From Agreia sp. Leaf283 (GTDB taxonomy: Bacteria; Actinomycetota; Actinomycetes; Actinomycetales; Microbacteriaceae): 64,000 nt of DNA. Shown here piece by piece: positions 13,733 through 56,660 of this stretch (the first letter of the stretch is position 1; every line of letters begins with the position of its first letter). Made by a program: the position numbers and the translations under genes. Where the stretch lies: positions 627,900-691,899 of the forward strand of contig NZ_LMNF01000001.1 in the NCBI RefSeq assembly GCF_001422485.1, read 5' to 3'. Under the pieces are notes generated by a model. It was not told the origin of the DNA. It made no database searches and worked only from the letters and a program-made list of their open reading frames with translations.

Positions 13733-14673
13733 GAGTCGTCGTCACAGGCGGCTCCGGCCGGCTCGGCCAGAGCGTGGTTCGCGGGCTCTGCGAGGCCGGC
13801 CACGACGTGACCTCGATCGACCGCGAGGGCGTAGCCGGCCTGCCGGGAACGCAGCTGCAGGCCGACCTCACCGACGCCGACGCGACCCGCACCCTTTTCA
13901 TCGCGATCGCCCCCGAGGCGGTCGTGCACCTGGCCGCGATCTCGGTTCCGTTCAGCGCCCCCGAGGCCACCATCCTGAACGTCAATACGGCGTTGGCGTT
14001 CTCCGTGGTCGACGCGGCCGTCGCATCCGGTGCCCGTCTGGTGCTCGCCGCGTCGAGCCCGACCGTGCTCGGCTACGGCAATCCGAAGGGCTGGGCGCCT
14101 CGGTTCCTGCCGCTCGACGAGACGCACCCGGTCGAGCCCTGGAACGCCTACGCCCTCTCGAAGCAGGTGATCGAGAACGTGATCGAGCGCTTCGTGCGCA
14201 ACAGCGACAACGTGACCTTCGGGGTCTTCCGGCCGTGCTTCGTCATTCCGCCCGAGGAGTGGGCGGGCGCACCGACGCAGCAGGGACATACGGTGGCAGA
14301 CCGGCTCGACGATCCGTCGCTCGCCGCCGTGTCGCTGTTCAACTACCTCGACGCCCGGGATGCCGCCGAGTTCGTGCGCGTCTGGCTCGAGCGCGCGGAG
14401 CTCGCCCCGAACGGCTCGGTCTTCTTCGTCGGCGCGGCCGACGCGCTGGCCCGGGAGCCGCTCGCCGAGCTGGTCCCGCGGTACCTGCCCGAGGCATCCG
14501 GTCTCGCGGCCGGGCTCACCGGCACGAGCCCCGCCTTCTCGTCGGCCAAGGCGCGCGAGCTGCTCGGCTGGGAGCCGCGCTACAGCTGGCGCACCGAGCT
14601 CGTGCAGGAGGCGACCGAAGCGCGAACTGAACCCGATCCCTCATCCCTCCCGACCGAAGTGAGAGTGTCATGA
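13729..14673 (+). CDS. NAD-dependent epimerase/dehydratase-type SDR, possible uronate dehydrogenase
   Basis: A 314-residue extended-type SDR with the Rossmann motif VTGGSGRLGQSV, a VHLAAIS segment and the catalytic YALSK (Tyr-x3-Lys). Uronate dehydrogenases belong to this superfamily and act just upstream of aldarate dehydration. With the hexarate genes that follow, oxidation of a uronic acid to its aldarolactone is the most economical guess. It is longer than characterised uronate dehydrogenases (about 265 residues), so a sugar epimerase remains possible. Translationally coupled on both sides by four-base overlaps. Confidence 0.75.
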   Translation: MRVVVTGGSGRLGQSVVRGLCEAGHDVTSIDREGVAGLPGTQLQADLTDADATRTLFIAIAPEAVVHLAAISVPFSAPEATILNVNTALAFSVVDAAVASGARLVLAASSPTVLGYGNPKGWAPRFLPLDETHPVEPWNAYALSKQVIENVIERFVRNSDNVTFGVFRPCFVIPPEEWAGAPTQQGHTVADRLDDPSLAAVSLFNYLDARDAAEFVRVWLERAELAPNGSVFFVGAADALAREPLAELVPRYLPEASGLAAGLTGTSPAFSSAKARELLGWEPRYSWRTELVQEATEARTEPDPSSLPTEVRVS

Positions 14674-41662: not shown

Positions 41663-43213
41663 ATGCACCGACAGCACCGTCTCGGCACCCGGAGCGCGGC
41701 AATCGCCGCTCTCGTCAGCGGCGCCCTTCTCCTCAGCGCATGCAGCGCGCCCGGCGACGCGACGTCGACCGACGCCGCCTCCGCAGCGCCCCCGCTCGCC
41801 CTGGCCGCAGTGTCCGGGCCGAACTCGCTCGACACAGCGCAGCTGGCCGACGGTCAACAGGCCTTCGTCTGGGCGTCGGTGTACGACACCCTTCTCGCAC
41901 GCGATCAGAAGACCGGTGCCGTGGCACCCAATGCGGCCGAGAGCTGGGAATACAACGCGGACGGCACCGTCCTCACCCTTAAGCTGCACGCCGACATGAC
42001 CTTCACCAACGGTGACCCGGTCGACGCCGCGGCCGTCGCCGCCACCATGCTCCGCACCAAGAACACGCCGGGCATCGTCCAGCCCAAGTTCGCCCTCGTC
42101 ACCGACGTGAAGGCGGTCGATGACCTGACGGTAGAGGTGACGTTCGCATCCTTCGACCCGCAGTTCATCTACAACCTCTCCCTGGGTGCCGGGGCGATCG
42201 GCGACCCCGACTCGCTCGATCTCCCCGAAGCTGCGACGAATCCGGTCGGCTCCGGGCCCTACACCCTGGACGTCGCGAACACCGTACCCGGCACGTCCTA
42301 CGTACTCACCAAGCGCGACGACTACTGGAATGCGGACGCCTACCCCTTCCCCTCCGTCACGGTGCGCGTACTGCAGGACCCCACCGCCTCCTTCAATGCT
42401 CTCCAGGCCGGTGAGATCAACGCTGCGACCGTGTCGGCACAGCTCGTCGGACAGCTCGACACGACGAAGTTCAGCATCAGCACCGTGCCCGGGCAAGCCC
42501 TCGCCTACCTCGACATCCTCGATCGGGGCGGCGAGAAATGGCCGGCGCTGGGTGACCAGAAGGTACGCCAAGCAATCAACCATGCGATCGATCGCGAGGG
42601 CATCCTGAAGGGCATCTACTCGGGCGACGGCACCCTGACCGAGCAGATCTTCAGCCCGAACGGCCAGGTGTTCGACGAGTCCCTGAACGACACCTACTCA
42701 TACGATCCCGAACTCGGCAAGAAGCTGGTCGCCGACGCCGGGTATGCAGGCGAGACGTTCCAGATTCCCAGCACCTTCCTCACGACATCCGTCGAGGCGA
42801 CTCTCTCTCAGGCATTCACCGACATCGGGCTCGGGCTCGAATGGGTCACCGTGCCGCCGCAGCAGGCCCAGTCGGCCTTGACCTCCGGCGACTATGGTCT
42901 GTCCTTCCAGATCACCGGCGTGAACTCCGATCCGGCCGACGCGTTCTTCCACTATTCGCCCAACGGCTTCGGCAACCCTCGGCACTACACCGACGCCACG
43001 ATCGACAAACTCTTCGCGACGATCAATTCGAGCGTCGACGAGTCCGCCTCGCTGCCGGCATACAAGGAGCTGAACGAATACGGCGTGGATCAGGCCTTCG
43101 AGGCCCCGATCACGTTCATCAACTCCACGTGGGCCACCGCCGACGGCATCTCCTTGATCCAGATCGGCGGCGTGCCGGCGACGGTGAGCAACTTCGCCTT
43201 CGACGGGAAGTAG
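41663..43213 (+). CDS. ABC transporter substrate-binding lipoprotein, family 5 (Opp/Dpp-type)
   Basis: A 516-residue binding protein. The signal peptide ends in the lipobox LLLSAC with Cys27. Family-5 features are AESWEYNADGTVLTLKLHADMTFTNGDPV, NPVGSGPYTLD and the KVRQAINHAIDREGIL helix. AAAGGAGTCTGAAAA precedes the ATG. No permeases follow; the Opp-type permease/ATPase set at 27366-30960 lacks a binding protein and has a twin promoter, so the two sets most likely form one importer. A strong hairpin at 43232-43263 terminates the transcript. Confidence 0.92.
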   Translation: MHRQHRLGTRSAAIAALVSGALLLSACSAPGDATSTDAASAAPPLALAAVSGPNSLDTAQLADGQQAFVWASVYDTLLARDQKTGAVAPNAAESWEYNADGTVLTLKLHADMTFTNGDPVDAAAVAATMLRTKNTPGIVQPKFALVTDVKAVDDLTVEVTFASFDPQFIYNLSLGAGAIGDPDSLDLPEAATNPVGSGPYTLDVANTVPGTSYVLTKRDDYWNADAYPFPSVTVRVLQDPTASFNALQAGEINAATVSAQLVGQLDTTKFSISTVPGQALAYLDILDRGGEKWPALGDQKVRQAINHAIDREGILKGIYSGDGTLTEQIFSPNGQVFDESLNDTYSYDPELGKKLVADAGYAGETFQIPSTFLTTSVEATLSQAFTDIGLGLEWVTVPPQQAQSALTSGDYGLSFQITGVNSDPADAFFHYSPNGFGNPRHYTDATIDKLFATINSSVDESASLPAYKELNEYGVDQAFEAPITFINSTWATADGISLIQIGGVPATVSNFAFDGK

Positions 43214-43231
43214 CCATAAGGTCTGCTGTCT

Positions 43232-43263
43232 CGACGGGGATGGGCTTCGGCCCATCCCCGTCG
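43232..43263 (+). terminator. UUCG-tetraloop terminator after the binding-protein gene
   Basis: A perfect 14-bp stem (CGACGGGGATGGGC / GCCCATCCCCGTCG) closed by a TTCG tetraloop lies 18 bp past the stop codon. There is no U-tract, but the stem is very stable. It separates the binding-protein gene from the LacI gene behind it. Confidence 0.8.
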
Positions 43264-43287
43264 TGCATCACCCTCTAGATTGGTCGT

Positions 43288-44361
43288 GTGAGCAACGCCA
43301 ACGGAACCGACCCCTCGACGGTCGGCGACATCCCGCCCGAGCTCGCGGCCAAGATTGCCAAGCGTGGAGGCTCCGCGACGATCTACGACATCGCCGAGCT
43401 CGCCGGCGTCAACCCATCGACCGTGTCACGGGCCCTGAGCAAACCGGGCCGTATCAGCCAGAAGACCGAGTCCAAGATCAAGGCGGCCGCCGACCGCCTC
43501 GATTTCCACTTCAACCCCATGGCGCGCGGACTTCATACCGGCCGCAGCCACACCCTGGGGCTTCTCGTCGCCGACATCACGAACCCCGTCATCTTCGGCA
43601 TCGTGCGCGGTGCCGAGCACGCGGCCTCCGCAGCGGGCTACACCCTCGTCATTGCCGAGTCGCAGGAGTCCGGTGATGCTGAAGCGGAAGCGATCTCCCG
43701 ACTTCTGCCGAGCGTCGACGGCATCGTCCTCGCCACCACCCGGCTCTCGGATGAGCGGATCTCCAGCGTCGCCTCACGCAAGCCGGTCGTGCTCATCAAC
43801 CGCCCGGTGGAGGGCGTCTTGAGCGTGCTGCCGGATGTCGAGACCGGTGTCGACGCCTTGGTCGATCACCTCGCAGGACTCGGCCACCGCTCCCTGCTGT
43901 ATCTCTCCGGGCCGGAGACTTCGTGGATCAGCCGCCGTCGTTGGGATCACCTGCTGCAGACGGCTGCCGATCGCGACCTTGCCATCGTCGAGGTGGGACC
44001 GCACAGTCCCACCATCGAGGCCGGCAAGCTTGCTCTGCGCCGTGTGCTCGCCGCTCGCTCGACTGCGGTCATCGCCTTCAACGACCTCATGGCCATAGGG
44101 CTGATTCAGGCTGCGACCAGCGCGGGCATCCGCGTGCCGGAAGACCTCAGCGTCACCGGATTCGACGACATCTTCGGTAGCGAGCTGATCGTGCCAGCCC
44201 TGACCACCGTCAGAGCCCGGCTGCAGACTGCCGGCGAGAGCGCCGTTGCACACCTCGTCGAGCTGATCGACGGCGGTACGCCCGCATCCAACGACCTGCT
44301 CGAGACGACGCTCATCGTTCGTGACAGCACAGGACCGCATCAGCAACGTGGCCCCCACTGA
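43288..44361 (+). CDS. LacI-family regulator, right flank of the glucuronide block
   Basis: A 357-residue regulator, paralogue of the one at 20764-21837. It has HTH TIYDIAELAGVNPSTVSRAL, hinge NPMARGLHTGRSHTLGLLV, and ligand-domain motifs FNDLMAIGLIQA and VTGFDDIFGSELIVPALTTV. The start is GTG 43288 with no Shine-Dalgarno; TAGATT (43276-43281) lies 7 nt upstream, where a -10 box would make a leaderless message. The two regulators bracket all the genes bearing the 18-bp operator. Whether one senses glucuronate/fructuronate and the other an intact glycoside cannot be told here. Confidence 0.92.
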   Translation: MSNANGTDPSTVGDIPPELAAKIAKRGGSATIYDIAELAGVNPSTVSRALSKPGRISQKTESKIKAAADRLDFHFNPMARGLHTGRSHTLGLLVADITNPVIFGIVRGAEHAASAAGYTLVIAESQESGDAEAEAISRLLPSVDGIVLATTRLSDERISSVASRKPVVLINRPVEGVLSVLPDVETGVDALVDHLAGLGHRSLLYLSGPETSWISRRRWDHLLQTAADRDLAIVEVGPHSPTIEAGKLALRRVLAARSTAVIAFNDLMAIGLIQAATSAGIRVPEDLSVTGFDDIFGSELIVPALTTVRARLQTAGESAVAHLVELIDGGTPASNDLLETTLIVRDSTGPHQQRGPH

Positions 44362-44502: not shown

Positions 44503-45297
44503 ATGACCGCGACCATTTCGCTCCAGCTCTACACGGTCAAGGATTCGCTGGCCGCCGATCCGGATGCGATGCTCGGGCGCATCGCCGGCCTCGGCTTCAC
44601 GGCCGTCGAGCTCTACGGCCTGCAGCAGTTCGGCGACGCCTACGCCGCGGGGCTCGCGAAGCACGGACTCACCGCTCCGAGCGCCCACGTGCCGCTCGCG
44701 ACCGGCGAGCTCGAGGAGTCCTTCGACCTGGCCGAGCGCCTGGGAGTGAAGACGGTCATAGAGTCGTTCACCCCGCCGACCCTGTGGGAGAGCGCCGAGA
44801 ACATCGCCCGCCTGGCCGACCGCCTCAACTCCGCGGTCGAGCCCGCGGCTGCGCGGGGCATGCGCGTGGGCTACCACAACCACGACGGCGAGATCCGCAA
44901 TCGCGTCGAGGGCGTCACCGGCCTCGACCACTTCGCGAGCCTGCTCGACCCCGCAGTCGTTCTCGAGGTCGACGCCTACTGGGTCGCCGCGGGAGGCGAA
45001 GATCTGGTCGAGTTCCTCACCCGCAACGCCGACCGGGTCAAGTTCATCCACGTGAAAGACGGCTCGCTCACCGGCGACCTGCCCAACCAGGTTCCCGCCG
45101 GGCATGCCTCTCTCGAGCAGCCCGAGCACCTGTCGAGCCAGCTTCCCGCAGGGCAGGGCGTCGTCCCCCTCGCCGCCGGCCTCGACGCAGTTCCCGACCT
45201 CGAGTTCGCCGTCGTCGAGTTCGACGTCTACTCGGGCGACCTGTTCGCCGGCATCGCCGAAGCCAGACAGTTCCTCGTCGAGAGGGGTCTCCGCTGA
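44503..45297 (+). CDS. TIM-barrel sugar isomerase/epimerase-like protein (AP endonuclease 2 superfamily)
   Basis: A 264-residue xylose-isomerase-like TIM barrel: SLQLYTVKDSLAADPDAMLGRI start, RVGYHNHDGEI (His), VVLEVDAYWVAAGG (metal-ligand region) and VKFIHVKDGSLTG. Proteins of this kind in Gfo/Idh clusters act as epimerases or as lyases on 3-keto-glycosides (for example the C-deglycosidase catalytic subunits CarC/DgpC). ATG 44503 has GAGGAG upstream; an in-frame TTG at 44491 is less likely. It overlaps the Gfo/Idh/MocA gene by one base, so the two form an operon. Confidence 0.82.
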   Translation: MTATISLQLYTVKDSLAADPDAMLGRIAGLGFTAVELYGLQQFGDAYAAGLAKHGLTAPSAHVPLATGELEESFDLAERLGVKTVIESFTPPTLWESAENIARLADRLNSAVEPAAARGMRVGYHNHDGEIRNRVEGVTGLDHFASLLDPAVVLEVDAYWVAAGGEDLVEFLTRNADRVKFIHVKDGSLTGDLPNQVPAGHASLEQPEHLSSQLPAGQGVVPLAAGLDAVPDLEFAVVEFDVYSGDLFAGIAEARQFLVERGLR

Positions 45298-46433
45298 TGA
45301 GCACCGCCGCCTACAGCCCCGCCACCTACAGCCCGGTCGGATCCGGCCCCGTCGGCATCGGCATCATCGGCGCCGGTGCGATCAGCGACCAGTACCTCAC
45401 CCACCTCACGACCTTCCCCGACGTTCGCGTCGTGATGATCGGCGATCTGGATGTCGCGCGGGCCGCGCAGCAGGCCGAGAAATACGGCGTGCCGCGTTCC
45501 GGACGCGCCGACGAGGTTCTGAAAGACGACGACGTCGAGATCGTGATCAACCTCACGATTCCGGCCGTGCACGCCGAACTCTCGTCGGCCGCGCTCAGCG
45601 CCGGCAAGCACGTGTGGAGCGAGAAGCCGATCAGTCTCGACCGCGAGAGCGGACAGGCGCTGCTCGACCAGGCATCCGCCGCCGGCCTGCGCATCGGTGT
45701 CGCGCCTGACACGATCCTCGGCCCGGGCGTGCAGAGCGCGCTCCGCGCGATTGCCCGCGGCGACATCGGCCGGCCGCTCACGGCGATGACCGCGTTCCAG
45801 GGCCCCGGCCCCGAGTCGTGGCACCCCAACCCCGACTTCTTCTTCGTTCCCGGCGCGGGGCCGTTGTTCGACATGGGGCCGTACTACCTCACGACGCTCG
45901 CCTGCATCTTTGGGTCATTCACCGAGGTGGCCGCGATCGGCTCACGGGCCCGCGACATCCGGGTGATCGGATCGGGCCCGCGCGCCGGAACCGAGCTGCC
46001 CGTGACCGTGAACACACAGATGAGCGCGCTCGCCCGCTTCGAGGGCGGCGAATCGTCGCAGAGCATCTTCAGCTTCGACTCACCGCTGCAGCGTTCGGGT
46101 TTCGTCGAGATCACCGGCGAGACCGGAACCCTCGTGCTGCCCGACCCGAACATGTTCGAGGGCGCGAGCACGCTGGTGCGCGGCGGGGAGAGCATCGAGC
46201 TGGCCGAGACCGGGTACGCCGGCGGCCGCGGATCCGCCGTGCTGGAGATGGCCCGGGCCATCCGGTCGGGCGGCGGCGACCTGCTGCCGGCCGAGCTGGG
46301 CTACCACGTGCTCGACGTGATGACCGCGATGGAGGAGTCGTCGACGGCCGGCCAATTCGTGCGAGTCACGAGCAAGGCCCCCGCGAGCCCGGTCCTCCCG
46401 GAGACCTGGGACCCGACGACCCGCACGCTCTAG
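45297..46433 (+). CDS. Gfo/Idh/MocA-family oxidoreductase (with the TIM-barrel partner)
   Basis: A 378-residue enzyme with IGIIGAGAISDQYL (Rossmann), HVWSEKPISLDRESG (EKP) and the C-terminal DMGPYYLTTLACIFG segment. DgpA-type enzymes that oxidise the sugar C3 hydroxyl of glycosides belong to this family and are encoded with TIM-barrel lyases, as here. A reductive role on a released 3-keto sugar is equally possible. A 13-residue Ser/Tyr-rich N-terminal tail is present. The start overlaps the preceding stop (TGATG). Confidence 0.85.
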   Translation: MSTAAYSPATYSPVGSGPVGIGIIGAGAISDQYLTHLTTFPDVRVVMIGDLDVARAAQQAEKYGVPRSGRADEVLKDDDVEIVINLTIPAVHAELSSAALSAGKHVWSEKPISLDRESGQALLDQASAAGLRIGVAPDTILGPGVQSALRAIARGDIGRPLTAMTAFQGPGPESWHPNPDFFFVPGAGPLFDMGPYYLTTLACIFGSFTEVAAIGSRARDIRVIGSGPRAGTELPVTVNTQMSALARFEGGESSQSIFSFDSPLQRSGFVEITGETGTLVLPDPNMFEGASTLVRGGESIELAETGYAGGRGSAVLEMARAIRSGGGDLLPAELGYHVLDVMTAMEESSTAGQFVRVTSKAPASPVLPETWDPTTRTL

Positions 46434-46436
46434 CGA

Positions 46437-46506
46437 GCATCCGCGCCGTGTGGGCGCATCCGCTGCCAGACGACCGGCGGCGCATGCGCCTATGGGGCGC
46501 GGATGC
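46437..46506. repeat. 70-bp dispersed intergenic repeat, copy 1
   Basis: The element lies between two convergent genes. Its ends form a 12-bp inverted repeat (AGCATCCGCGCC at 46436-46447, GGCGCGGATGCT at 46496-46507), and its interior shares CGCATCCGCTGCC and GCGCATGCGCC with copies at 56875-56944 and 57885-57950. It may serve as a two-way terminator here. Confidence 0.6.
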
Positions 46507-46513
46507 TGGACGG

Positions 46514-47470
46514 TCACGCCGGGATCGTCGACTCCAGCCAGGCGCGACTCACCTTCGCGCTCTCGAACGGCTCCATGCTCGCGCGGTCGACCTCGATGAT
46601 GATCCAGCCGCCGAAGCCGTCGGGCAGGGCTCCGAGGATGCCGTCGAGGTCCATCCCGCCGAGCCCCGGCTCGAGGAACAGCCCCTGGTCGGTCGCGGTG
46701 CGGTAGGGGGTGGGCGTCGCCCGGCTCGCGGCCGCCACGTCGAGGTCGAGGTCCTTGATGTGCAGGTCGACGAGGCGATCCGAGTAGCGCTCCAGCATCG
46801 AGACCGGGTCCATACCCGCCCACGCGAGGTGCCCCACGTCGAACGAGGCGCCCAGCAGATCCGGCGAGATGGCGGCGAGCACGCGGTCGATCTCGTACTC
46901 GGTCTCGACCCAGGTGCCCACGTGATTATGCAGGCCGGCCCTAATGCCTTCCGAGGCGAGCACGCTCGCGGCCTCGCCGAGCACGTCGATCACCCGGTCG
47001 AGACGACCCTCGTCGAAGACGGCACCCACGGCCACGGCGTCGAGCGTGCGCACCGTGCCGGGAGCCCACGACACCTCGGGGGCGAGAAAGACCGACGTCA
47101 GCCCGAAGAAGTTCGACTCCTCGGCCTTGCGCCGCACGCCGTCGAACCAGCGCACGAACGAAGCGCTGCCCGGCGCAAGCGACACCCCGTGGTCCTCGGG
47201 CAACGAGACCGAGCAGTACCCCGAGGCCACACGAAGGCCCGTTTCGCGCAGCATGCGGGCATAGTCCTGCAGGGTCTGCGTGTCGAGCACCTCCATCATC
47301 GTCGCGTCGAAACCCGAGCGACGCACCTGCGCGAGCACATCCGGGTACTGCGCCCGAAAGCTCGGCTCGGCGAAGAGCCAGAGGTCGTCGCTGGCCGGGT
47401 CCGCCGGGTCGGCCTTGATGTTGATCCACTGAATGGGGTTGAGCGCGAACTGCGAGCGGCTGAGCGTCAT
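46514..47470 (-). CDS. TIM-barrel sugar isomerase/epimerase-like protein
   Basis: A 318-residue xylose-isomerase-like barrel. Visible motifs are FALNPIQWINIKADPADP near the N-terminus, GIRAGLHNHVGTWVETE (His), SFDVGHLAWAG (Asp/His metal region), LVDLHIKDLDLD and WIIIEVDR (Glu). Such proteins bind a divalent metal and act on keto sugars; 2-keto-myo-inositol dehydratase (IolE) and CarC-like lyases are relatives. ATG 47470 follows CAGGAAGAAGACC; an upstream in-frame extension lacks support. It is last in a three-gene leftward run behind the flavoprotein and the deaminase-fold protein. Confidence 0.82.
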   Translation of the reverse strand: MTLSRSQFALNPIQWINIKADPADPASDDLWLFAEPSFRAQYPDVLAQVRRSGFDATMMEVLDTQTLQDYARMLRETGLRVASGYCSVSLPEDHGVSLAPGSASFVRWFDGVRRKAEESNFFGLTSVFLAPEVSWAPGTVRTLDAVAVGAVFDEGRLDRVIDVLGEAASVLASEGIRAGLHNHVGTWVETEYEIDRVLAAISPDLLGASFDVGHLAWAGMDPVSMLERYSDRLVDLHIKDLDLDVAAASRATPTPYRTATDQGLFLEPGLGGMDLDGILGALPDGFGGWIIIEVDRASMEPFESAKVSRAWLESTIPA

Positions 47471-47516
47471 GGTCTTCTTCCTGGTCGAACAATCAAAGAA
47501 CGGGGGCCGGATGCCG

Positions 47517-48128
47517 TCACTCGGCCGCGCGGGCGTTGTACACGACCGCGCCACCCGCATCCACGTGCTCGCGGTAGTCGCGGAACACCGTGAGGGCCTC
47601 GTCGCGGGTCACGTCCTGCACCACGGCAATGCCCCGAGCCTCGAACTGCGGTGCCCAGTCCTCGCGCATGGGGCCCTCGTCGAACGTCGTGATCTCCTCG
47701 AGCTCTGGCCCGTCGCCGGCGACGACGAGCGTGCGCACTCCCGACCACAGCGTCGCGCCGTAGCACTGCACGCAGGGGCGCCAGTTCACGACGAGCTCGT
47801 GCGCGGGCTGGCCCTCGCCGCCGAGGTCCCACGATCCGACGCGCGTCTGCGCGAGCCCGAGGGCGGTGACCTCGGCGTGCGCCGACGAGACGCCGCTCTT
47901 CAGCACCACGTTCACGCCCACCGATACGATCTTGCCGGTGTCCGACTCCACCACGATTGCCGCGAACGGTCCCCCGCTTCCCTCCCTGAAGTTGCGGGCA
48001 GCGAGCCGGTGCACGAGCCGCATGCGCTCCTCGTAGCTGCCGAGCGCATCCGGCACGTCGGCGAGCTCGTCGGCGATCCAGTCGGGCAGCTCGATCGAAT
48101 ACGAGGTGGCCAGGGTGTCGATGTTCAT
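47517..48128 (-). CDS. Cytidine-deaminase-fold (nucleoside/guanine deaminase-like) zinc enzyme
   Basis: A 203-residue protein with the zinc-deaminase signature: His84-Ala-Glu86 (SSAHAEV) and Pro-Cys119-x-x-Cys122 (WRPCVQCYG). The N-terminal 45 residues form a helical lead (YEERMRLVHRLAARNFREGSGGPFAAIVVE) as in guanine deaminases of this fold. It should hydrolytically remove an amino group from a purine, pyrimidine or similar heterocycle. Its position between a sugar-oxidising flavoprotein and a TIM-barrel protein is unexpected and suggests an aromatic-amine aglycone or a nucleoside-like glycoside as substrate. ATG 48128; GAAGGGACACTC upstream. Confidence 0.85.
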   Translation of the reverse strand: MNIDTLATSYSIELPDWIADELADVPDALGSYEERMRLVHRLAARNFREGSGGPFAAIVVESDTGKIVSVGVNVVLKSGVSSAHAEVTALGLAQTRVGSWDLGGEGQPAHELVVNWRPCVQCYGATLWSGVRTLVVAGDGPELEEITTFDEGPMREDWAPQFEARGIAVVQDVTRDEALTVFRDYREHVDAGGAVVYNARAAE

Positions 48129-48185
48129 GAGTGTCCCTTCAAGACGGTGCAGATGGGTGAAGACGAATGGATGCGCGACCGCCGG

Positions 48186-49709
48186 TCAGGCGGCCGACAC
48201 CCGCAGGCGGGCGACGGCTCGCGCCGCGCGCACGGCGGTGATCACGCCGGTGAGGGTGGCGTTGCCGACGACCGGCGTGGGGATGACCCCGTTGCCGGCC
48301 AGATAGAGGCCGTCGAATCCCCAGACCCGCCCATCCGGATCGCAGACGCTCGTGCCGTCGTCGACGGCGCCCATGCGCACGGTGCCGGTCTGGTGCAGCG
48401 ACGAGCCGGGGGCGAGCACGGCCGACTCGGTCTCGGGATCGAACGCTCCGAATCGTCGAGCGACGAGTTCGATCGTGTCGGCCGCCTGCTCGATGAGCGC
48501 GAGGTCGGTGTCGGTGTACTCGAATTCGACGGTGATGCGCGGCATGCCGGTGACGTCGGTCTCGGTCGGCGAAAACGCCAGCCTGTTCGAGGCTCGCGAC
48601 TCGACGGGCGTGTAGAGCGAGACGCCGACGGAGTACGCAAGAGCCTCATCGTCGTCGTCGACGTAGACGGAGTTCATGATCTGCCCGTGGAACGGCTGGG
48701 CCGCCCCGTTCTGGGGCAGCCAGAGGGAGTCGGTGGCGAACTCGCCCTCGAGGGCGCGGGGCAGTTCATCGAGAGTGAGGCCGAAGCGGTCGAGGTCCAT
48801 GAGCACGCGGCTCGTCACGAAGGCGTGCTCGTTGAGGTAGCGGCCGAGCGCCTCGGGCCTGATGCCCGACGCGAACAGCAGCTGAGGCGTGCGCATCACG
48901 TCGGCGCACACGATCGTGACAGAAGCCTCGATGTCGTACTCCTCGCCCGAGGCGATGTCGCGCACGCGCGCCCCGCGGGCGCGGCCTCCGTCGTGCAGCA
49001 CCGCGATCGCGAGCGTGCCGGCGCGCAGTTCGAAGGCGGCGTCGCCTCCCTCGGCGATCGGCGGGAAGATGCGGCTGGGGCCGGTGCGCGGCAGGGGCCC
49101 GGATGCGCCGGGCTGCACGGCCATCGGCATGGCCTGCGGGTGCCGGTCGGCGGGGCTCGCGGCGCCGAACAGCTCGTCGAGCACGTCGAGCACCTGCTGG
49201 CCGGGCACGGTCGGACCGAGCACGGCCGGGTGCACGCCGAGCACCTCGCGCGCCTTCCCGAGGTCGGCCTGCCACTGCTCGGAGTCTCCGAAGTCGAAGG
49301 TCTCGTCGCCCGCGGGCCACGGCGTCGCCCCGGTCCAATGCACGCCCATTCCGCCCACGTTCCACGACAGGGCACTCGCGGGCATGGCGGCCGCGTCCTC
49401 TCCGAGCGCCGAGAGGTTGTACATGCCGGGCTCCACCGAGCGCAGCTCGTCGGTGATGTCGGGGGTCACATCGGCGCCCGTGTACATGCCCTGGATCCCT
49501 GAGGAGACGCGCTGGTTGTAGCGCTCCCAGATGGCGGGTTCGGTGCTGTCGTGCAGATGCAGCCCGGGCACGTTTCCCACCACGGGCGCGCCGTCGATCA
49601 TGAGGATGCGCGCGGTCGGGTCGGCCTCGCGCAGCAGCCTGGCCGTCGCGGCACCCATGATTCCGCTGCCGACGATGAGGATGTCGGGGGTGTTCTGCGA
49701 GTCAGACAT
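48186..49709 (-). CDS. GMC oxidoreductase of the pyranose-oxidase type (possible glycoside 3-oxidase)
   Basis: A 507-residue flavoprotein. The FAD-binding start is ILIVGSGIMGAATARLL. His124 in NVGGMGVHWTGATP corresponds to the position that carries covalent FAD in fungal pyranose 2-oxidase. The catalytic pair is His in SSLHQTGTVRMG and Asn in PVVGNATLTG near the C-terminus. It is shorter than fungal enzymes (about 620) and close in length to bacterial relatives such as the Microbacterium C-glycoside 3-oxidase CarA. ATG 49709 follows AGGAGCTTCGA. No signal peptide is present, so oxidation is cytoplasmic. A ROK-type operator half lies upstream. Confidence 0.87.
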   Translation of the reverse strand: MSDSQNTPDILIVGSGIMGAATARLLREADPTARILMIDGAPVVGNVPGLHLHDSTEPAIWERYNQRVSSGIQGMYTGADVTPDITDELRSVEPGMYNLSALGEDAAAMPASALSWNVGGMGVHWTGATPWPAGDETFDFGDSEQWQADLGKAREVLGVHPAVLGPTVPGQQVLDVLDELFGAASPADRHPQAMPMAVQPGASGPLPRTGPSRIFPPIAEGGDAAFELRAGTLAIAVLHDGGRARGARVRDIASGEEYDIEASVTIVCADVMRTPQLLFASGIRPEALGRYLNEHAFVTSRVLMDLDRFGLTLDELPRALEGEFATDSLWLPQNGAAQPFHGQIMNSVYVDDDDEALAYSVGVSLYTPVESRASNRLAFSPTETDVTGMPRITVEFEYTDTDLALIEQAADTIELVARRFGAFDPETESAVLAPGSSLHQTGTVRMGAVDDGTSVCDPDGRVWGFDGLYLAGNGVIPTPVVGNATLTGVITAVRAARAVARLRVSAA

Positions 49710-49737
49710 TCGAAGCTCCTGGTTCCTGTACTGCGGG

Positions 49738-49762
49738 TGATTTCGTACTGTGTTGCAAAATT
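49738..49762. promoter_or_regulatory. Probable ROK operator upstream of the flavoprotein gene
   Basis: The segment TACTGTGTTGCAAAATT (49746-49762) matches the corresponding half of the palindrome at 55426-55450 at 15 of 17 positions; the other half is degenerate. It lies 29 bp upstream of the flavoprotein start, in the promoter region. Confidence 0.55.
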
Positions 49763-49797
49763 CCTCATGACAATGCGAGCGGGATGCTCGCCGCGGG

Positions 49798-50928
49798 TCA
49801 CGCCGCGATGGTCGGTCCGAAGAACTCCACGTCCATGCGGTCGAGCACAAGTTTGACCGCGCCGAGCAGGGGCGCATCCGCCCCGATGGTGGTGGCGCGC
49901 ACGTCGATGCGCAGGGTGCCGAGCTGCTTCATGGCCTCGACGACGCGGGGAAGAAGCAGGTCCTCCGCCACCTCGAGGCCTCCCCCGAGCACGATCACCT
50001 CGGGCGCGATCGTCCACGCCAGCGACGAGAGCAGGCGGGCGACGTCGTCGGCGAACTCGCCGAGAAGTTGCAGAGCCTCGGCGTCGCCGGCGCGCGCCCT
50101 GACGAGCCACGCGGCGGCCTGGCGGCGTTCCTCGAGCAGCGGCGAGCTCAGCAGACCGAACGGCTGCGTCTCCATGCGCATGACGTCGAGCACGCCCGCC
50201 TCGACGATCTCACCGGCGGCTCCCCTGAATCCCCGGTGCACGGCTCCCTTGATCACGATGCCGACACCGGCGCGGTTTCCGAGGATGCACCACGCGAACG
50301 TGTCGGTCTCCTGCGCCGCACCGCGCCAGTGCTCGGCGAGGGCGGCGAGGTTCGCGTCGTTGTCGGCGAAGAGGGGAATGCCGAGCCGCGCGCCGAGCAC
50401 GTCTGCGAGAGCGAACTCGTTCCAGGCGGGCGCGTGGATCAGACGGTGCACAACACCGTCCTCGTCGATGGCTCCACCGGATGCGACGGCCCCGGCGCGC
50501 ACCCGGCCGCGGGGCTGGCCCGACTCCCGGATCGCCGCATCCACGGCCTCTTCGGCGTCGATCATCGTCTGGCCGGTGTCGGAGTAGTTGCGCAGGGTCA
50601 CGAGGCCGCGCCCGAGCACCCGACCGCGGATGTCGGAGACCGCCGCGCTGGCCGCGTGCGTGTCGATGCGCACGGCCACGACGAGGGCGCGGTCGGCCTC
50701 GAACGAGAAGTACCGCGGCGGCCGACCGACATCCACGTGCACGGGCGTGACCTCGACGGCCCAGCCGCTCTCGCAGAGCTGGGTGAGGATGAGCTCGACC
50801 GTGCGCCGCGACAGTTTGACCTGCCCCACGAGGGTCGCCATCGTCACGGGCTCGTCGTGCTCGGCGAGGGCGCGCAGCACCACGGAGGTATTCAGTCGGC
50901 GCATCGCGCTCGGGTCGAGTCCAGGCAT
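49798..50928 (-). CDS. ROK-family transcriptional regulator
   Basis: A 376-residue NagC/XylR-type regulator. An N-terminal winged HTH (NTSVVLRALAEHDEPVTMATL; LSRRTVELILTQL) is followed by the ROK sugar-kinase-like domain with PLFADNDANLAALAEHW and PEVIVLGGGLE. The usual zinc-binding CxCGxxGC cluster is absent. ATG 50928 is 4 bp past the esterase stop with GGGAGAG upstream, so the longer in-frame reading is rejected. It is last in the ABC-importer operon and probably controls that operon and the flavoprotein run through the shared TTGCAAAATT-type sites. Confidence 0.9.
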   Translation of the reverse strand: MPGLDPSAMRRLNTSVVLRALAEHDEPVTMATLVGQVKLSRRTVELILTQLCESGWAVEVTPVHVDVGRPPRYFSFEADRALVVAVRIDTHAASAAVSDIRGRVLGRGLVTLRNYSDTGQTMIDAEEAVDAAIRESGQPRGRVRAGAVASGGAIDEDGVVHRLIHAPAWNEFALADVLGARLGIPLFADNDANLAALAEHWRGAAQETDTFAWCILGNRAGVGIVIKGAVHRGFRGAAGEIVEAGVLDVMRMETQPFGLLSSPLLEERRQAAAWLVRARAGDAEALQLLGEFADDVARLLSSLAWTIAPEVIVLGGGLEVAEDLLLPRVVEAMKQLGTLRIDVRATTIGADAPLLGAVKLVLDRMDVEFFGPTIAA

Positions 50929-50932
50929 CTGC

Positions 50933-52321
50933 TCACTCTCCCAGATCGGCGTCGACGAGCGGCAGAACCGCGTCGTACGCGCCGGCAACGAGAGCGGTCG
51001 AGTCGCTCGACACCACACCGAAGACGAGCACCGGGTCTGACTCGACACCGTGGGCGGCGGGCCAGGAGGGCTCGGCCCCCGCGATGAAGGCGACGAACTC
51101 GCGGTGCATGCGGGCGGCGAGGGTGGCGGGTGGCTCGTCGCCGAGAACCGCCTCGACCCCCTCGGCACCGAGGATGTCGAAGAAGAAGGGCAGGTCGATG
51201 CAGTGGGCAGCCCCGCGCAGCACCGGCGACGCCCAGTCGAACGAGTAGAGCCACGTGCCTGCGGCGGCGGATGCCCGTGCCCGGGCCGTGCGCAGAACGC
51301 TCGCCCTGAAGAGAACATCGGTCTGGCGCGGAGCAGCGACGTCCGTCGTCTCATGCGCCTCGACCTCCGGCTCCGTACTCGAGCCCGCGAAGCCGGGGCT
51401 GTCGAACTCGTCGGCGGTCGCGCCGATGAGAAGAGGCTTGTCGAGCCCGGTCACCGCGAGGCCCGCTCGGATCGACAGGGGCAGCAGCTCGTCGCCGCTC
51501 ACCGGCTCGAACAGCAGCGGCGCAGCGCCCGGGTGCCGCTCGCCCCACGTGATGACCGCCTGTTGCAGCGCATCCGGGTCGACCGAGGCGAGGCCCTCGG
51601 CCGTCGGCGCGACGCCGAGCGAGTCCGCGAGCGCGGCGGTGGCCAGGGCGGCCTCGTCGAGGGAAGTCGAGAGGTCGACGGGTGAGATCGCGACGGCCCT
51701 GTCGAAGAGCGGCTGCGCGGCGGGGCTGGCGAGAAGCGCGAGAACGGCGCCGCCACCCGCGGACTGCCCGGCGACGGTGACGCGGCCCGGGTCTCCCCCG
51801 AACGCCGCGATGTTGTCGCGCACCCACGCGAGGGCCAGCAGCCAGTCGGCCATACCGCGGTTGGCGCGGCCATCCACCGCGGCGAAGCCGTCGACACCCA
51901 GCCTGTACGACAGCGTGACCATGACGATGCCGTCGCGGGTCAGAGCGGCGCCGTCGTACCAGGGGCCGACCGCGGAGCCGGTGACGTATCCCCCGCCGTG
52001 GATCCAGACCAGCACGGGCGCGGCGCCGGAGCCGACACCGTCGGTCGGCGCGAACACGTTGAGGGTGAGGGTGTCGTCTCCCGGGATCGACGGCTCGGGG
52101 ATGGTCGTGACGGGGTACGGGCGGCCGCGCTGCGGCGTGGCTCCGAAAGCGGATGCCGCGAACGGCTCGTCGAAGACGGCCCGCGGTTCGGGCGCGGCGA
52201 AGCGTCGCGCACCGACGGGCGCCTCGGCGAAGGGGATGCCGAGGAATCGCGCATCCACCCCGTCGGTGAAGCCGACGATCGTGCCCGCAGCGCAGTCGAC
52301 CTCGATCATGGCCTCCATCAT
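50933..52321 (-). CDS. Carboxylesterase family (type B)
   Basis: A 462-residue alpha/beta hydrolase. It shows FLGIPFAEAPVGARRF near the N-terminus, the oxyanion hole WIHGGGYVTGS, the nucleophile elbow VAGQSAGGGAV and a C-terminal His in GAAHCIDLPFFF. The order fits type B carboxylesterases, though it is shorter than most (about 500). It may remove acyl groups (acetyl, feruloyl, gallate) from imported glycosides. Start ATG 52321 overlaps the permease stop; in-frame ATGs at 52318 and 52309 are alternatives. It is between the importer genes and ROK, in one operon. Confidence 0.87.
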   Translation of the reverse strand: MMEAMIEVDCAAGTIVGFTDGVDARFLGIPFAEAPVGARRFAAPEPRAVFDEPFAASAFGATPQRGRPYPVTTIPEPSIPGDDTLTLNVFAPTDGVGSGAAPVLVWIHGGGYVTGSAVGPWYDGAALTRDGIVMVTLSYRLGVDGFAAVDGRANRGMADWLLALAWVRDNIAAFGGDPGRVTVAGQSAGGGAVLALLASPAAQPLFDRAVAISPVDLSTSLDEAALATAALADSLGVAPTAEGLASVDPDALQQAVITWGERHPGAAPLLFEPVSGDELLPLSIRAGLAVTGLDKPLLIGATADEFDSPGFAGSSTEPEVEAHETTDVAAPRQTDVLFRASVLRTARARASAAAGTWLYSFDWASPVLRGAAHCIDLPFFFDILGAEGVEAVLGDEPPATLAARMHREFVAFIAGAEPSWPAAHGVESDPVLVFGVVSSDSTALVAGAYDAVLPLVDADLGE

Positions 52322-53142
52322 TTCAGTCCGGTCGACACGATGCCCTGCACGAAGTAGCGCTGCAGGAACAGGAACAGCACGAGAACAGGCAGCATCACGA
52401 TGACGGCGCCGGCGAGCACGAGGCCGTAGTCGGTCACGTTCTGGGCCGCCTGGCTCATCGCCGCGAGGCCGACGGGCAGGGTGTAGCTGTCGGCGCTCTG
52501 GGCCACGATCAGGGGCCAGATGAAGTTGTTCCACGAGGCCAGGAACGACATGATCGTGACCGTCGCCACCGCGGGGCCGGCCAGGGGCAGGAAGATCTGG
52601 AAGAAGATGCGCACCTCGTTCGCGCCGTCGATGCGGGCGGCCTCGAGCAGTTCGTCGGGGATGCTCGCGGCGAACTGCCTCATGATGAAGATCGAGATCG
52701 GCAGCACGAGGCTGGGCAGGGCGATTCCGGCGAGGGTGTCGACGAGACCGAGCTGAACGGTCACCACGAACTGCGGAACGAAGGTGGCCGAGAACGGCAC
52801 CATCAGGGCGATCAGCACGGCGGCGAAGGCGATCCTCTTGCCGCGGAACTCGAGCTTCGCCAGGGCGAAGCCGGCCATCGAGGCGGCGATGATGTTGCCG
52901 ATGACGATGACGACCGCCACGATCACGCTGTTGCCGAGGAACGTGCTGAAGCCGTTGCGGCTGAACAGGCGGGCGAAGTTGTCGAGGGTCACCTCGGAGG
53001 GCAGCCAGGCCCCGGGGTTCGCCTGGATGTCGCTCGTCGTGCGGAGCGACCCGGAGATCACCCAGATGAACGGCAGGATCGTGACGAGAGCGAGCACGAT
53101 GAGGGCCGTATAGAGCACGGCGGGGCGCAGGCGCGAGGTCAT
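52318..53142 (-). CDS. Sugar ABC transporter permease, MalG-type
   Basis: A 274-residue permease with six helices and the coupling loop ELLEAARIDGANEVRIFFQIFLPLA; the C-terminus RYFVQGIVSTGLK is typical of MalG-like CUT1 proteins. Start ATG 53142 overlaps the MalF-type stop (ATGA); the longer in-frame reading covers that gene in another frame. It works with the upstream permease and binding protein; no ATPase is encoded in the operon. Confidence 0.92.
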   Translation of the reverse strand: MTSRLRPAVLYTALIVLALVTILPFIWVISGSLRTTSDIQANPGAWLPSEVTLDNFARLFSRNGFSTFLGNSVIVAVVIVIGNIIAASMAGFALAKLEFRGKRIAFAAVLIALMVPFSATFVPQFVVTVQLGLVDTLAGIALPSLVLPISIFIMRQFAASIPDELLEAARIDGANEVRIFFQIFLPLAGPAVATVTIMSFLASWNNFIWPLIVAQSADSYTLPVGLAAMSQAAQNVTDYGLVLAGAVIVMLPVLVLFLFLQRYFVQGIVSTGLK

Positions 53143-54059
53143 GAGCGACTCCTCAGCAGACGGAACTGCAGCGCGCTGACGGCCGCGACGATGAGCAGCA
53201 GGATGAACGATGCCGCGCTCGAGACGCCGAAGTTGCCGAACCCGAACTGGTGGTAGGTGAAGAGCGCCATCGACTCGGTCGACCCGAGCGGGCCGCCGTT
53301 GGTCAGCAGGTAGGGCTCGTCGAAGACCTGCAGGAAGAAGACCGAGAGCAGCACGGAGACCAGGAGCGTCGTGGGCATGATCAGCGGAATGGTCATCGAC
53401 CAGAGGCGCCGCCACGGGCCGGCGCCGTCGAGGGCGGCCGCCTCCTGCACGTCCTCCGGAACGGACTGGAGGCCGGCGAGGAACAGCAGCATGGCCGTTC
53501 CGAAGTTGCGCCAGATGCCGAGCAGGATGACGACCGGCATCGCGAGATTCTCGTCGCCCAGCCAGTTCGGGCCGGCGAAGCCGAGGTTCGCGAGCACCTC
53601 GTTGACCGTGCCGTTCTGGTTGAACGCGTACTGCCAGATCAGCGCCACGGAGACGATGTTCGTGACCACGGGTGCGTAGAAGAGGCCGCGGAAGACGGAG
53701 CGGAACCGACGGATGCCGCTGTTGAGCACGAGCGCGAGGGCGAAGCCCACCGCCATGGTCACGGGAACGCCGACGACCACGAAGAGGAGGGTGTTGAGGA
53801 TCGCCCGCACGAAGTTGCCGTCGGAGAGCAGGGCCACGTAGTTCTCGAGGCCTGCGAAGTTCACCCCGAACGGCGTCTGCAGGTCTGCGCTGCGCATGTC
53901 GGTCACGCTGATGGCGAGCGACGAGATGATCGGGATGGCGCTGAAGACCACGAAGATCACGGCGAAGGGGGCGAGGAACAGCCACGCGATCCCCGTATGC
54001 GCGGGGCGCCGCCGTGTGCGCGGCGCCCCCGTCTTGTTCGACTGCACGGCGAATGCCAT
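53139..54059 (-). CDS. Sugar ABC transporter permease, MalF-type
   Basis: A 306-residue CUT1 permease with six helices after a basic N-terminal tail, and coupling loop DVQEAAALDGAGPWRRLWSMTIPLI. It lies 4 bp behind the binding protein gene and is coupled to the MalG-type permease. With those genes it forms the importer of the ROK-regulated block. Confidence 0.92.
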   Translation of the reverse strand: MAFAVQSNKTGAPRTRRRPAHTGIAWLFLAPFAVIFVVFSAIPIISSLAISVTDMRSADLQTPFGVNFAGLENYVALLSDGNFVRAILNTLLFVVVGVPVTMAVGFALALVLNSGIRRFRSVFRGLFYAPVVTNIVSVALIWQYAFNQNGTVNEVLANLGFAGPNWLGDENLAMPVVILLGIWRNFGTAMLLFLAGLQSVPEDVQEAAALDGAGPWRRLWSMTIPLIMPTTLLVSVLLSVFFLQVFDEPYLLTNGGPLGSTESMALFTYHQFGFGNFGVSSAASFILLLIVAAVSALQFRLLRSRS

Positions 54060-54063
54060 CGGA

Positions 54064-55371
54064 TCAGTCCGTGCCCGTACCGATGCTGTCGGCCTTCTTC
54101 TGCGCGTTCGCCATCGCCTCTGCGGCGGTCTCCTTGCCGCGGGCGACCTGCTCCAGCTCCTTGCCGAGCATGGTCGAGACCTCGTTCCAGGTGCTCACCG
54201 ATGGCATGGGCTTCACGTTCTTCAGCTGCTCGAAGAACGGCTTGAGCAGGGGCTGGTCGGCGATCGACGGGTCGCTCCACGCCGCGACGACGGCGGGCAT
54301 GCTGCCTGCCGCCTCGTACTGGGCGACCTGCGTGTCCTCCTGGGCCATGAAGCTCACGGCCTTCCAGGCGGAATCGGCGTTGTCCGACTTCTTCGTGACG
54401 GCCCAGCTTCCGCCGGCCAACTGCCCGACGTTGCCATCCGGACCCGCGGGGAGAACCGCCGTCTGGATGTGCGCCGCGGTCCAGCCTTCTTCGCCGGCAG
54501 TGGTGTCGAGGCCGGAGATCACCCACGGGCCGCTGATCATCGAGCCGGTCTTGCCCGCCACGAGGTAGGGCTGCGTGTCGAGGAACTGGGGCGTGTCGGG
54601 CGACGAGACTCCCGACGAGAAGAACGATGCGTTGAACTCGGCCGCCTCGATCATGCCGGGGGTGTCGAGCTCCCACTTCGAACCGTCTTCGCTGAGCAGG
54701 GTCTCGCCGGCCTGATAGCCGAAGATCGCGAGGTTCTGTCCGTTGTAGGTGTCCCAGCCGACGTCGGCGCCGTAGCCGCTCTCGGCTCCGCCCTCTTCGA
54801 GCTTCTGGAAGAACGGGATCGTCTCATCCCAGGTCGCGGGCGGGGTGGCTCCGGCCTTCTGCGCGAAGTCGTCGCGGTAGATGAGCAGTCGCGTGTAGGC
54901 GTACCACGGCACCGAGTAGGCGGTTCCGTCGACCTCGCCCGCATCCCACGAGCCCTCGAAGAACGACGAGGAGTCGGCCACGCCGTCGGGAACGGGTGCG
55001 AAGGCATCCGATGCCAGGAACTGGGTCTGCGCCTCGGTGTAGAGGAACGCGATGTCGGGAGCGGTTCCGGCCGCGATCGCCGTCTGCAGCTTGGTGTTGT
55101 ACTCGTCGCTCGGCACGAGGGTGACCTCGACGTCGGCATCGGGGTTGTCGCTCTCGAACGGCTTGAGCACCTCGTCGAGGGCGGTGGCGTCGCCGTCCGG
55201 CGCCCACAGGGTGACCTTTCCGGTGGCCGGACCGTCTGCGAGGCTGCCCGCGGCCTCGGGTGCCGCGCCGTCGCTGGAGCGGCCGCATCCGGTGGCGGCC
55301 AGGGCTGTGACCGCGAGAATCGCGGCGAGGGGAATGAGGCGCGAGCGCCTCAGCGGAGGACGGGAATTCAT
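54064..55371 (-). CDS. ABC sugar transporter substrate-binding lipoprotein (family 1)
   Basis: A 435-residue lipoprotein. The signal peptide (RRSRLIPLAAILAVTALAATGC) ends in a lipobox with Cys29. Family-1 motifs include KVTLWAPDGDATALDEVLKPF, AAGTAPDIAFLY and VPWYAYTRLLIYRDDFAQKAG. Start ATG 55371 has GGAG 6 nt upstream. It heads the leftward operon binding protein, MalF, MalG, esterase, ROK. A 25-bp palindrome lies 55-79 bp upstream of the start. The cargo is presumably the glycoside attacked by the flavoprotein/TIM-barrel enzymes. Confidence 0.92.
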   Translation of the reverse strand: MNSRPPLRRSRLIPLAAILAVTALAATGCGRSSDGAAPEAAGSLADGPATGKVTLWAPDGDATALDEVLKPFESDNPDADVEVTLVPSDEYNTKLQTAIAAGTAPDIAFLYTEAQTQFLASDAFAPVPDGVADSSSFFEGSWDAGEVDGTAYSVPWYAYTRLLIYRDDFAQKAGATPPATWDETIPFFQKLEEGGAESGYGADVGWDTYNGQNLAIFGYQAGETLLSEDGSKWELDTPGMIEAAEFNASFFSSGVSSPDTPQFLDTQPYLVAGKTGSMISGPWVISGLDTTAGEEGWTAAHIQTAVLPAGPDGNVGQLAGGSWAVTKKSDNADSAWKAVSFMAQEDTQVAQYEAAGSMPAVVAAWSDPSIADQPLLKPFFEQLKNVKPMPSVSTWNEVSTMLGKELEQVARGKETAAEAMANAQKKADSIGTGTD

Positions 55372-55625: not shown

Positions 55626-56660
55626 CTACTCGGCCATCGAAGACGCAGCGGGAGTCACCGTCGACGCCCTGATCACGAGCTCGGGATCGAAGACGACGTG
55701 CTTCGATTCCTCGCTCCCCTCCCCCGCGATCTCCGCCGTCAGAAGGTCGACCGCGGTCGGCCCGAACGAGTCGTGCGGGCCGCGAACCGTGGTGAGGGGA
55801 ATGATCGACGAGGCCCCGAACACCGTGTCGTCATAGCCCACGATCGCAATGTCCTGGGGTACCCGGATGCCGTGCTCGACCACGAGAGTCTGAAGCAGCC
55901 CCAGCGCCATCAGATCATTGACCGCGAAGATCGCGTCGGGCCGCTCCTCGACCGGTCTCGCAGCGATCTGGTCGGCCACGTCGCGACCCTCGGCGATCGT
56001 GCGGTCCACCGCGTCGATCTGTTCGATCGTGACTCCGGGGCTCTCCCGCACCGCCGCGAGCGCGCCCTCGTAACGTTCCCCGACCTGAGGAACCGAGAGC
56101 GGCCCTCCCACATAGGCGACGCGGGTGCGGCCGATGTCGATGAGGTGCCTGACCGCCAGGAATCCACCCTTCATCTCGTCGAGCGAGACCGAGGGCTGCG
56201 CCGGCGAGGCCGCCCGCTGCCCCATCAGAACCGACGGCGTTCCCCGCAGGCGGATCTGCGTGAGGCGATCCTCGACCGGTTCGTGCGACGCGACGAGCAT
56301 TCCCTGCACACCCTGAGCCTCGAACATCTCGAGGTAGCTGTCCTCGCGTTCGCGCGAGCTGTTGGAGTTGGCGATGAAGACCTTCAGTCCTCCCGCTGCC
56401 GCCCTGCGCTCGACACCCTCGGCGATCGTTGCGAAGAAGGGGTTGCTCACATCGGGCGCTATGTACGCGATGGTGGCGCTGCGGCCCAGGCGCAGCTGCC
56501 AGGCGGCGTTGTTGCGCACGAAGCCCAGGTCGTCGATCGCCTTCTGAATGCGCTGGCGCTTCTCCGGCGACACCCTGTCGGGGTGGTTGATGTAGTGAGA
56601 CACCGTGCCCAACGACACCTCGGCGAGGCTTGCGACCTCGCGAATTCCTACTCGAGCCAC
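55626..56660 (-). CDS. LacI-family regulator of the rhamnoside block
   Basis: A 344-residue regulator with HTH IREVASLAEVSLGTVSHYIN, a ligand domain with SNPFFATIAEGVERRAAAGG, FAVNDLMALGLLQTL and IVGYDDTVFG. The start is GTG 56660 (HTH begins six residues later). It is alone on its transcript. TGAAACGTTTCA-like sites at 56811-56822 and 59227-59428 are its expected targets, which would put the lactonase, the SDR/CMD pair and the ABC/rhamnosidase operon under one regulator. Confidence 0.9.
   Translation of the reverse strand: MARVGIREVASLAEVSLGTVSHYINHPDRVSPEKRQRIQKAIDDLGFVRNNAAWQLRLGRSATIAYIAPDVSNPFFATIAEGVERRAAAGGLKVFIANSNSSREREDSYLEMFEAQGVQGMLVASHEPVEDRLTQIRLRGTPSVLMGQRAASPAQPSVSLDEMKGGFLAVRHLIDIGRTRVAYVGGPLSVPQVGERYEGALAAVRESPGVTIEQIDAVDRTIAEGRDVADQIAARPVEERPDAIFAVNDLMALGLLQTLVVEHGIRVPQDIAIVGYDDTVFGASSIIPLTTVRGPHDSFGPTAVDLLTAEIAGEGSEESKHVVFDPELVIRASTVTPAASSMAE

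Follow-up and report, generated by a model that had tools for sequence, protein, structure and literature searches.

The 64,000-nucleotide stretch of the Agreia sp. Leaf283 genome analyzed here (hereafter the window) carries, on the minus strand from position 55371 down to 46514, an operon in which genes for a CUT1 importer, a carboxylesterase and a ROK-family regulator are followed by those for a GMC-family glycoside oxidase, a guanine-deaminase-like zinc enzyme and a xylose-isomerase-like TIM barrel. Our favored interpretation, to which we give even chances, is that the operon serves the catabolism of a glucoside, probably a beta-glucoside, with an aminated N-heterocyclic aglycone. With slightly less confidence, a little short of even, we propose a dedicated pathway for such compounds (for example vicine-type pyrimidine O-glucosides, pterin glucosides or purine N-glucosides), in which the freed base would be deaminated by the operon's own deaminase. 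The link between the deaminase and the oxidase operon looks new: no paper joining the two was found in the open-access literature searched, a term search for "deaminase" gave no occurrence in the main texts of PMC10807413, PMC11673046, PMC10646112, PMC10628242, PMC9659204, PMC8563793 and PMC12724307, and the literature listing for vicine consisted mostly of food and feed papers and included no operon.

Conservation of the operon and its deaminase

Gene calling with a codon model and Pfam/NCBIfam scans of the window proteins recovered all the genes that an earlier, sequence-only reading of this DNA had named at 44503-55371; both TIM barrels (PF01261), the Gfo/Idh/MocA enzyme, the carboxylesterase, the ROK regulator, the 2 CUT1 permeases, the binding protein and the deaminase (PF00383) each score above the Pfam gathering cut-off. 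Named bacterial genomes were then scanned with an alignment of oxidase orthologues, and the best 80 of 89 relatives provided 80 loci, a set picked by 2 oxidase peptide patterns, hence biased toward close relatives and including some loci cut by contig ends. The order binding protein, permease, permease, (esterase), ROK regulator, oxidase is kept in 67 of the 80 loci, with the esterase gene present between permease and ROK in 37. The deaminase adjoins the oxidase in 62 loci, the TIM barrel gene directly follows the oxidase in 11, and in 58 the complete series, from the binding protein to the deaminase and the TIM barrel, is intact; these 58 span Microbacteriaceae, Promicromonosporaceae, Streptomyces and Nonomuraea. 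With 67 and 58 of 80 loci, the gene grouping is beyond chance. The sequence-only reading, which had treated all the genes as one group, was thus right about the operon but not about the gene pair at 44503-46433 (a second TIM barrel and the Gfo/Idh/MocA enzyme), which is encoded on the plus strand, convergent to the operon, and is present in only 2 of the 80 loci, both from Agreia.

The oxidase and deaminase genes lie within 75 bases of each other in 59 of the 61 loci measured and overlap by 4 bases in 10 of the 61 (start positions being those of the gene caller). One more locus, L059 of Streptomyces sp. SA15, has both enzymes in a single 716-residue frame. At the junction, the ribosome-binding stretch and the GTG start seen in its relatives are still in place, and there is a short length change compared with L063; the joint frame thus probably stems from a frameshift or an error in sequencing, and we do not count it as a fusion.

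The deaminase (47517-48128; PF00383, 53.9 bits) has its best match in structure 2g84 (E 5.5e-40), which we take to be the same protein as the second match, 7c3s. The latter is the guanine deaminase NE0047 (PMC9739398). The operon enzyme resembles NE0047 in fold and subfamily, and in the zinc site (HAE at residues 84-86 and PCVQC at 118-122), the FDEGP glutamate (149-153) and the C-terminal YNAR (197-200). These features are kept among the operon-linked deaminases: all 64 rows have those from residue 112 on, and 63 have those at residues 73-86, where the remaining row is truncated; N73, H84, E86, C119, C122, E151, Y197 and N198 occur in every row that reaches them. The loop glutamate presumably corresponds to E143 of NE0047. 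Unlike NE0047, which has S-A-E and Met at the equivalent places, the operon deaminases form a group of their own with N115-W116-R117 and Gln121 in all 64 rows. From its relatives and residues, the protein is predicted to be a guanine-type enzyme of the cytidine deaminase superfamily.

The association with the oxidase extends beyond adjacency. Of 398 genomes of the host's family, 16 encode an oxidase of 54% identity or more, a line chosen after the list had been seen, and 15 of these have the deaminase, versus 33 of the 382 others (Fisher test, 2.8e-14); 2 of the 16 oxidase genes were read in 2 pieces (genomes G347 and G246). The count at a 50% line is 15 of 19 (5.2e-12) and that by genus is 6 of 7 versus 12 of 78 (2.6e-4), all of these tests being inflated by kinship. 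Furthermore, 7 of the 8 tested operon genomes without an adjacent deaminase carry one elsewhere.

A clade III glycoside oxidase without a C-glycoside lyase subunit

The oxidase (48186-49709, minus strand) carries GGMGVHWTGATP with His124, a context that had already been pointed out from the sequence, as well as His439 and Asn483. The GVHW motif, which is the clade III consensus of the POx/CGOx enzymes (PMC10807413), is followed by Thr126 in the window protein (GVHWT, residues 122-126), and the substrate loop reads NSVYVDDDD, a variant of the clade III R(P/T)(F/Y)VDEDG(E/R), with several Streptomyces loci reading RTYVDEDG. The best solved matches are 8qve (37.7% identity), MtCarA (7dve, 39.5%) and PsG3Ox (7qf8, 38.0%). 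The sequence-only reading had suggested a phylogeny against CarA. In a tree of 55 rows, which covers 37 of the 80 loci and includes S. canus proteins but not the sequence of ScPOx itself, the window oxidase groups with proteins from Agreia (96% identity to that of Agreia sp. PsM10), Rathayibacter, Promicromonosporaceae and S. canus on a branch supported at 100/99, MtCarA, PsG3Ox and 8qve are found on another branch at 100/98, and 9fl2 stands alone. As judged from its sequence, the enzyme is therefore a member of clade III, the group of Streptomyces canus ScPOx, rather than CarA-like. It shares with the CarABC (Microbacterium), PsG3Ox and PurABC clusters a flavin adenine dinucleotide-dependent glycoside 3-oxidase of GMC sequence space and a provenance from soil Actinomycetota, and is set apart from CarA and PsG3Ox by its well-supported separate branch; PurA itself was outside the comparison.

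ScPOx (accession A0A117Q443) falls in the same oxidase clade (PMC9659204). In each of the 3 S. canus genomes, a single homologue was found (E up to 1e-20), located inside the operon with the deaminase, so that ScPOx is very probably an enzyme of this operon. The words "operon," "gene cluster," and "deaminase" do not occur in the main text of PMC9659204, where ScPOx is presented as a lone enzyme; its authors argue that free sugars are not the natural substrate (PMC9659204).

The small subunit of C-glycoside deglycosidases (PF19906), the absence of which had been claimed from the sequence, has no match in the whole genome of Agreia sp. Leaf283. The earlier reading had called this partner CarB, but the name should be CarC: CarB is the 39.4-kDa alpha subunit and CarC the small, 19.6-kDa one (PMC8563793). 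Because 14 stock control genomes also yielded no PF19906 match (0/14), the first search proved nothing alone; as positive controls, 4 genomes were chosen for oxidases that group with CarA/PsG3Ox, and PF19906 was found in all 4. The family is absent from 7 of 13 genomes, namely that of Leaf283 and 2 further genomes each from Agreia, Rathayibacter and S. canus. In G045 and G793, which contain the clade III operon together with further oxidases, PF19906 is present on contigs other than that of the operon, near the further oxidases. Given the 7 genomes without PF19906 and its off-operon location in these 2, the clade III operon appears not to rely on a CarBC-type lyase. This lends support to the proposal that deglycosylation is oxidative and proceeds with no lyase of the CarBC/DgpBC type, and takes away from the C-glycoside setting in which it had been placed.

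TIM barrels, accessory genes and genomic surroundings

The nearest match of the plus-strand TIM barrel (44503-45297) is 8BVK (E 9.8e-16), the structure of AtOGE, an O-glycoside beta-eliminase acting without a second subunit (PMC10628242). In the alignment, the metal and catalytic residues H132, H134, D163 and H189 of AtOGE are all kept, as H125, H127, D157 and H183, and other solved relatives include 8tcd and 8tct, titled 3-keto-beta-glucopyranoside-1,2-lyases. The protein is thus a putative O-glycoside eliminase, predicted to cleave 3-keto-O-glucosides. The barrel of the operon (46514-47470), which we refer to as type A (IolE/AtHYD-like), was modeled with a predicted local distance difference test score of 92.5; its nearest fold is IolE (3cny), with AtHYD at Foldseek ranks 10 and 12, and in the profile search IolE (3cny) is likewise first and AtHYD is the next named family (E 2.5e-7). 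It keeps HNH (181-183), D211, H237 and E293. The C-glycoside deglycosidase (CGD) alpha-subunit structures 7dnn, 7exb and 7exz are not among the sequence-level hits of either barrel and do not occur among the 50 fold-search rows listed for the operon barrel. In Streptomyces and Nonomuraea, the deaminase-adjacent slot is occupied by a barrel of another type, approximately 26% identical and also nearest to IolE by fold, with HTE replacing HNH in 49 of 54 low-identity barrel proteins; the exchange of barrels at this position suggests a common reaction. In the Streptomyces locus L058, a third, hydroxypyruvate-isomerase-like barrel (13064-13837; TIGR03234, 156 bits) overlaps the end of the operon barrel.

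The Gfo/Idh/MocA oxidoreductase (45297-46433, plus strand; PF01408 and PF22725), the start of which overlaps the stop of the preceding barrel gene, is a candidate 3-keto-sugar reductase. Its presence near TIM barrels recalls gut-bacterial DgpABC; unlike in that system, there is no PF19906 here, and the enzyme is no closer to DgpA (64.7 bits) than to scyllo-inositol dehydrogenase (71.2 bits). The idea that 2 oxidase classes coexist at the locus is consequently weak, given that among the loci seen the Gfo enzyme stands beside the operon only in Agreia, does not favor DgpA, and has a reductase as its counterpart in Agrobacterium. The Agrobacterium tumefaciens operon GlycDH-AtOGE-AtHYD-Gfo encodes a GMC flavoenzyme, the eliminase, a hydratase, for which the evidence is preliminary according to the authors, and a Gfo reductase (PMC10628242). 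The Agreia locus is similar in combining a GMC flavoenzyme, 2 xylose-isomerase-like barrels, one nearest to AtOGE with matching catalytic residues and the other with AtHYD second after IolE, and a Gfo/Idh/MocA enzyme, without a small deglycosidase subunit. It differs in that the oxidase belongs to POx/CGOx clade III and not to GlycDH, in the additional importer, ROK regulator, esterase and deaminase, and in that the pair of eliminase-like and Gfo genes lies outside the conserved operon, which it accompanies only in Agreia. By analogy, the four-enzyme Agrobacterium route, which runs through oxidation, elimination, hydration and reduction, can account for the 2 barrels and the Gfo enzyme, as well as for the lack of a small subunit, with no need for new chemistry; as that operon works without a small subunit, its absence here is not strange and does not bear out the novel chemistry that had been read from it.

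Related oxidases also occur in other settings. In L116 (Amycolatopsis nivea) and L130 (Microbacterium esteraromaticum), they are found beside a Gfo-type enzyme (levoglucosan-dehydrogenase-like in the former, assigned by eye in the latter) and TIM barrels, without a deaminase, and this arrangement is another layout of similar chemistry. In L044, L045 and L046, oxidases of 50%-52% identity occur with a barrel 28%-30% identical to that at 44503-45297, another ABC importer and a regulator of TetR type by eye (read in L044); no deaminase match was found in these 3 genomes.

The first operon gene encodes the CUT1 ATP-binding cassette (ABC) solute-binding protein (54064-55371; PF01547, 105.9 bits), the nearest solved structure of which is 5ysb (E 2.1e-47) of the Lin1841 protein, which we take to be a beta-glucan-oligosaccharide binder. 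It is followed by the 2 permeases (53139-54059 and 52318-53142; both PF00528), the carboxylesterase, an optional member (50933-52309; PF00135, 239.6 bits), and the ROK regulator (49798-50928; PF00480, 103.7 bits), all on the minus strand. No shared operator was recognized, in that no perfect palindrome recurs in the 67 operon upstream regions compared (the best occurs in 4). By eye, AATGTATGCGCATCC is common to three Agreia before the 44503 gene only, which weakly suggests separate regulation of the pair. Just ahead of the operon lies a LacI regulator gene (55626-56660), whose product has a counterpart of 97% identity in Agreia PsM10 and one of 46% in A. bicolorata; in the remaining loci, the range of 7 genes around the oxidase yielded no more than weak matches (28%-31%), which are in L084 and L119 and lie on the opposite side. 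Preceding the 44503 gene, another LacI regulator and an ABC binding protein that by eye is of peptide type (41663-44361) look inserted beside the conserved pair, as they are not at that place in two other Agreia. The window as a whole is an apparent run of sugar-catabolic islands, with 2 alpha-L-rhamnosidases (PF17389; 10035-12782 and 36685-39063) amid many sugar-catabolic genes.

Proposed substrate and pathway

In the proposed pathway, the CUT1 importer would take up the glucoside under ROK control, and the esterase, where present, would strip acyl groups. Based on its sequence class, the clade III enzyme would oxidize the sugar at C3, whereupon a TIM barrel may cleave the 3-keto-glycoside by metal-assisted beta-elimination without a two-subunit lyase of the CarBC type; an O-linked intermediate could also break down spontaneously. 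In Agreia, elimination would fall to the AtOGE-like barrel, hydration of 2-hydroxy-3-keto-glucal to the IolE/AtHYD-like barrel and reduction of 3-keto-glucose to the Gfo enzyme; in operons with one barrel, that barrel would cleave. The deaminase would act on the aglycone, or on the glycoside, and take off the amino group at a guanine-like C2. The ring attacked by guanine-type deaminases is common to the aglycone of vicine and to pterins. Such enzymes act at the amino-bearing C2 (PMC9739398), hence the proposal of an N-heterocyclic glucoside; the conserved, added deaminase is also consistent with the earlier suggestion of a different aglycone.

Several observations weigh against this interpretation. 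The deaminase is not adjacent to the oxidase in 17 of the 80 loci, is missing genome-wide in G268 and has only a partial match of 40% in Amycolatopsis nivea. It is encoded by 33 of the family genomes without such an oxidase, and the N-W-R signature is not special to the operon, being shared by 8 of 13 solo copies. In three Rathayibacter (L173, L174 and L183), the deaminase stands alone between the genes that flank the operon of L033 (flanks 92%-96% identical) and therefore has a use of its own. The deaminase-adjacent barrel is of the 2 unlike types described above in different lineages. Finally, ScPOx oxidizes flavonoid C-glycosides, best of all puerarin (PMC9659204), and such substrates need no deaminase. 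The activity of ScPOx and the solo occurrence of the deaminase would fit an operon for the oxidation of flavonoid-type O- or C-glycosides with a hitch-hiking guanine deaminase that has outlasted operon loss in Rathayibacter and has its own job, an explanation that we find unlikely, if still a serious one. A molybdenum-hydroxylase of the xanthine dehydrogenase kind (PF02738) in 7/7 genomes searched speaks for it, but 2 of the 7 (G140 and G116) already own an amidohydrolase guanine deaminase above cut-off, counts that are only suggestive as regards a generic need for guanine deamination. Among 35 neighborhoods of solo deaminases taken as a clue to the substrate, 31 of which had the deaminase and its neighbors, no neighbor cluster was common to more than 6 loci. 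Against a passenger gene speak its kept place between oxidase and barrel over several actinobacterial families and its co-occurrence with the oxidase when not adjacent, and the 7 operon genomes lacking the C-glycoside deglycosidase subunit do not favor C-glycosides as substrates.

Other assignments of the deaminase or the barrels are much less probable. A pathway that degrades pyranosyl nucleoside antibiotics or confers resistance to them, in which the base would be the substrate of the deaminase, would suit the many loci from soil actinobacteria and the deaminase beside a sugar oxidase; we nevertheless consider it improbable, since the best known of these antibiotics carry cytosine, the nearest relative and residues of the deaminase are of guanine type, and importer and ROK control better suit catabolism. 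Still less probable is a CarABC/DgpABC-like C-glycoside deglycosylation in which the deaminase-fold protein replaces the small subunit as partner of the barrel. The gene's place between oxidase and barrel in 58 of the 80 loci is compatible with such a role, yet the zinc and catalytic residues are all kept, as in an enzyme, solo copies exist, and the profile hits of the operon barrel include no CGD alpha subunit. Least probable of all is inositol catabolism, which had been named from the outset as a grouping of the barrels and the Gfo enzyme that would speak against the earlier proposal, and which does not refute it here. In its favor, 3cny is the top structural and profile match of the operon barrel, and the Gfo enzyme has IolG as its best match in NCBIfam. 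Those scores are well under the cut-offs (121.4 versus 290 bits for TIGR04379 (IolE), with the other barrel at 44, and 73.5 versus 355 bits for IolG), no IolE match above cut-off was found in 7/7 genomes searched, Leaf283 among them, and a glycoside oxidase and a deaminase are foreign to such a pathway.

Glycoside oxidases of this group have been studied for the breakdown of plant C-glycosides, and those of clade III occur in 7 genomes in which a search for the known subunit of C-glycoside lyases gave no match; the conserved deaminase hints at a different class of substrates. If the aminated N-heterocycle glucoside pathway proposed here is correct, the ScPOx clade would have been tested on, and named for, the wrong substrates, and N-heterocycle glucosides would join the substrates of oxidative deglycosylation.

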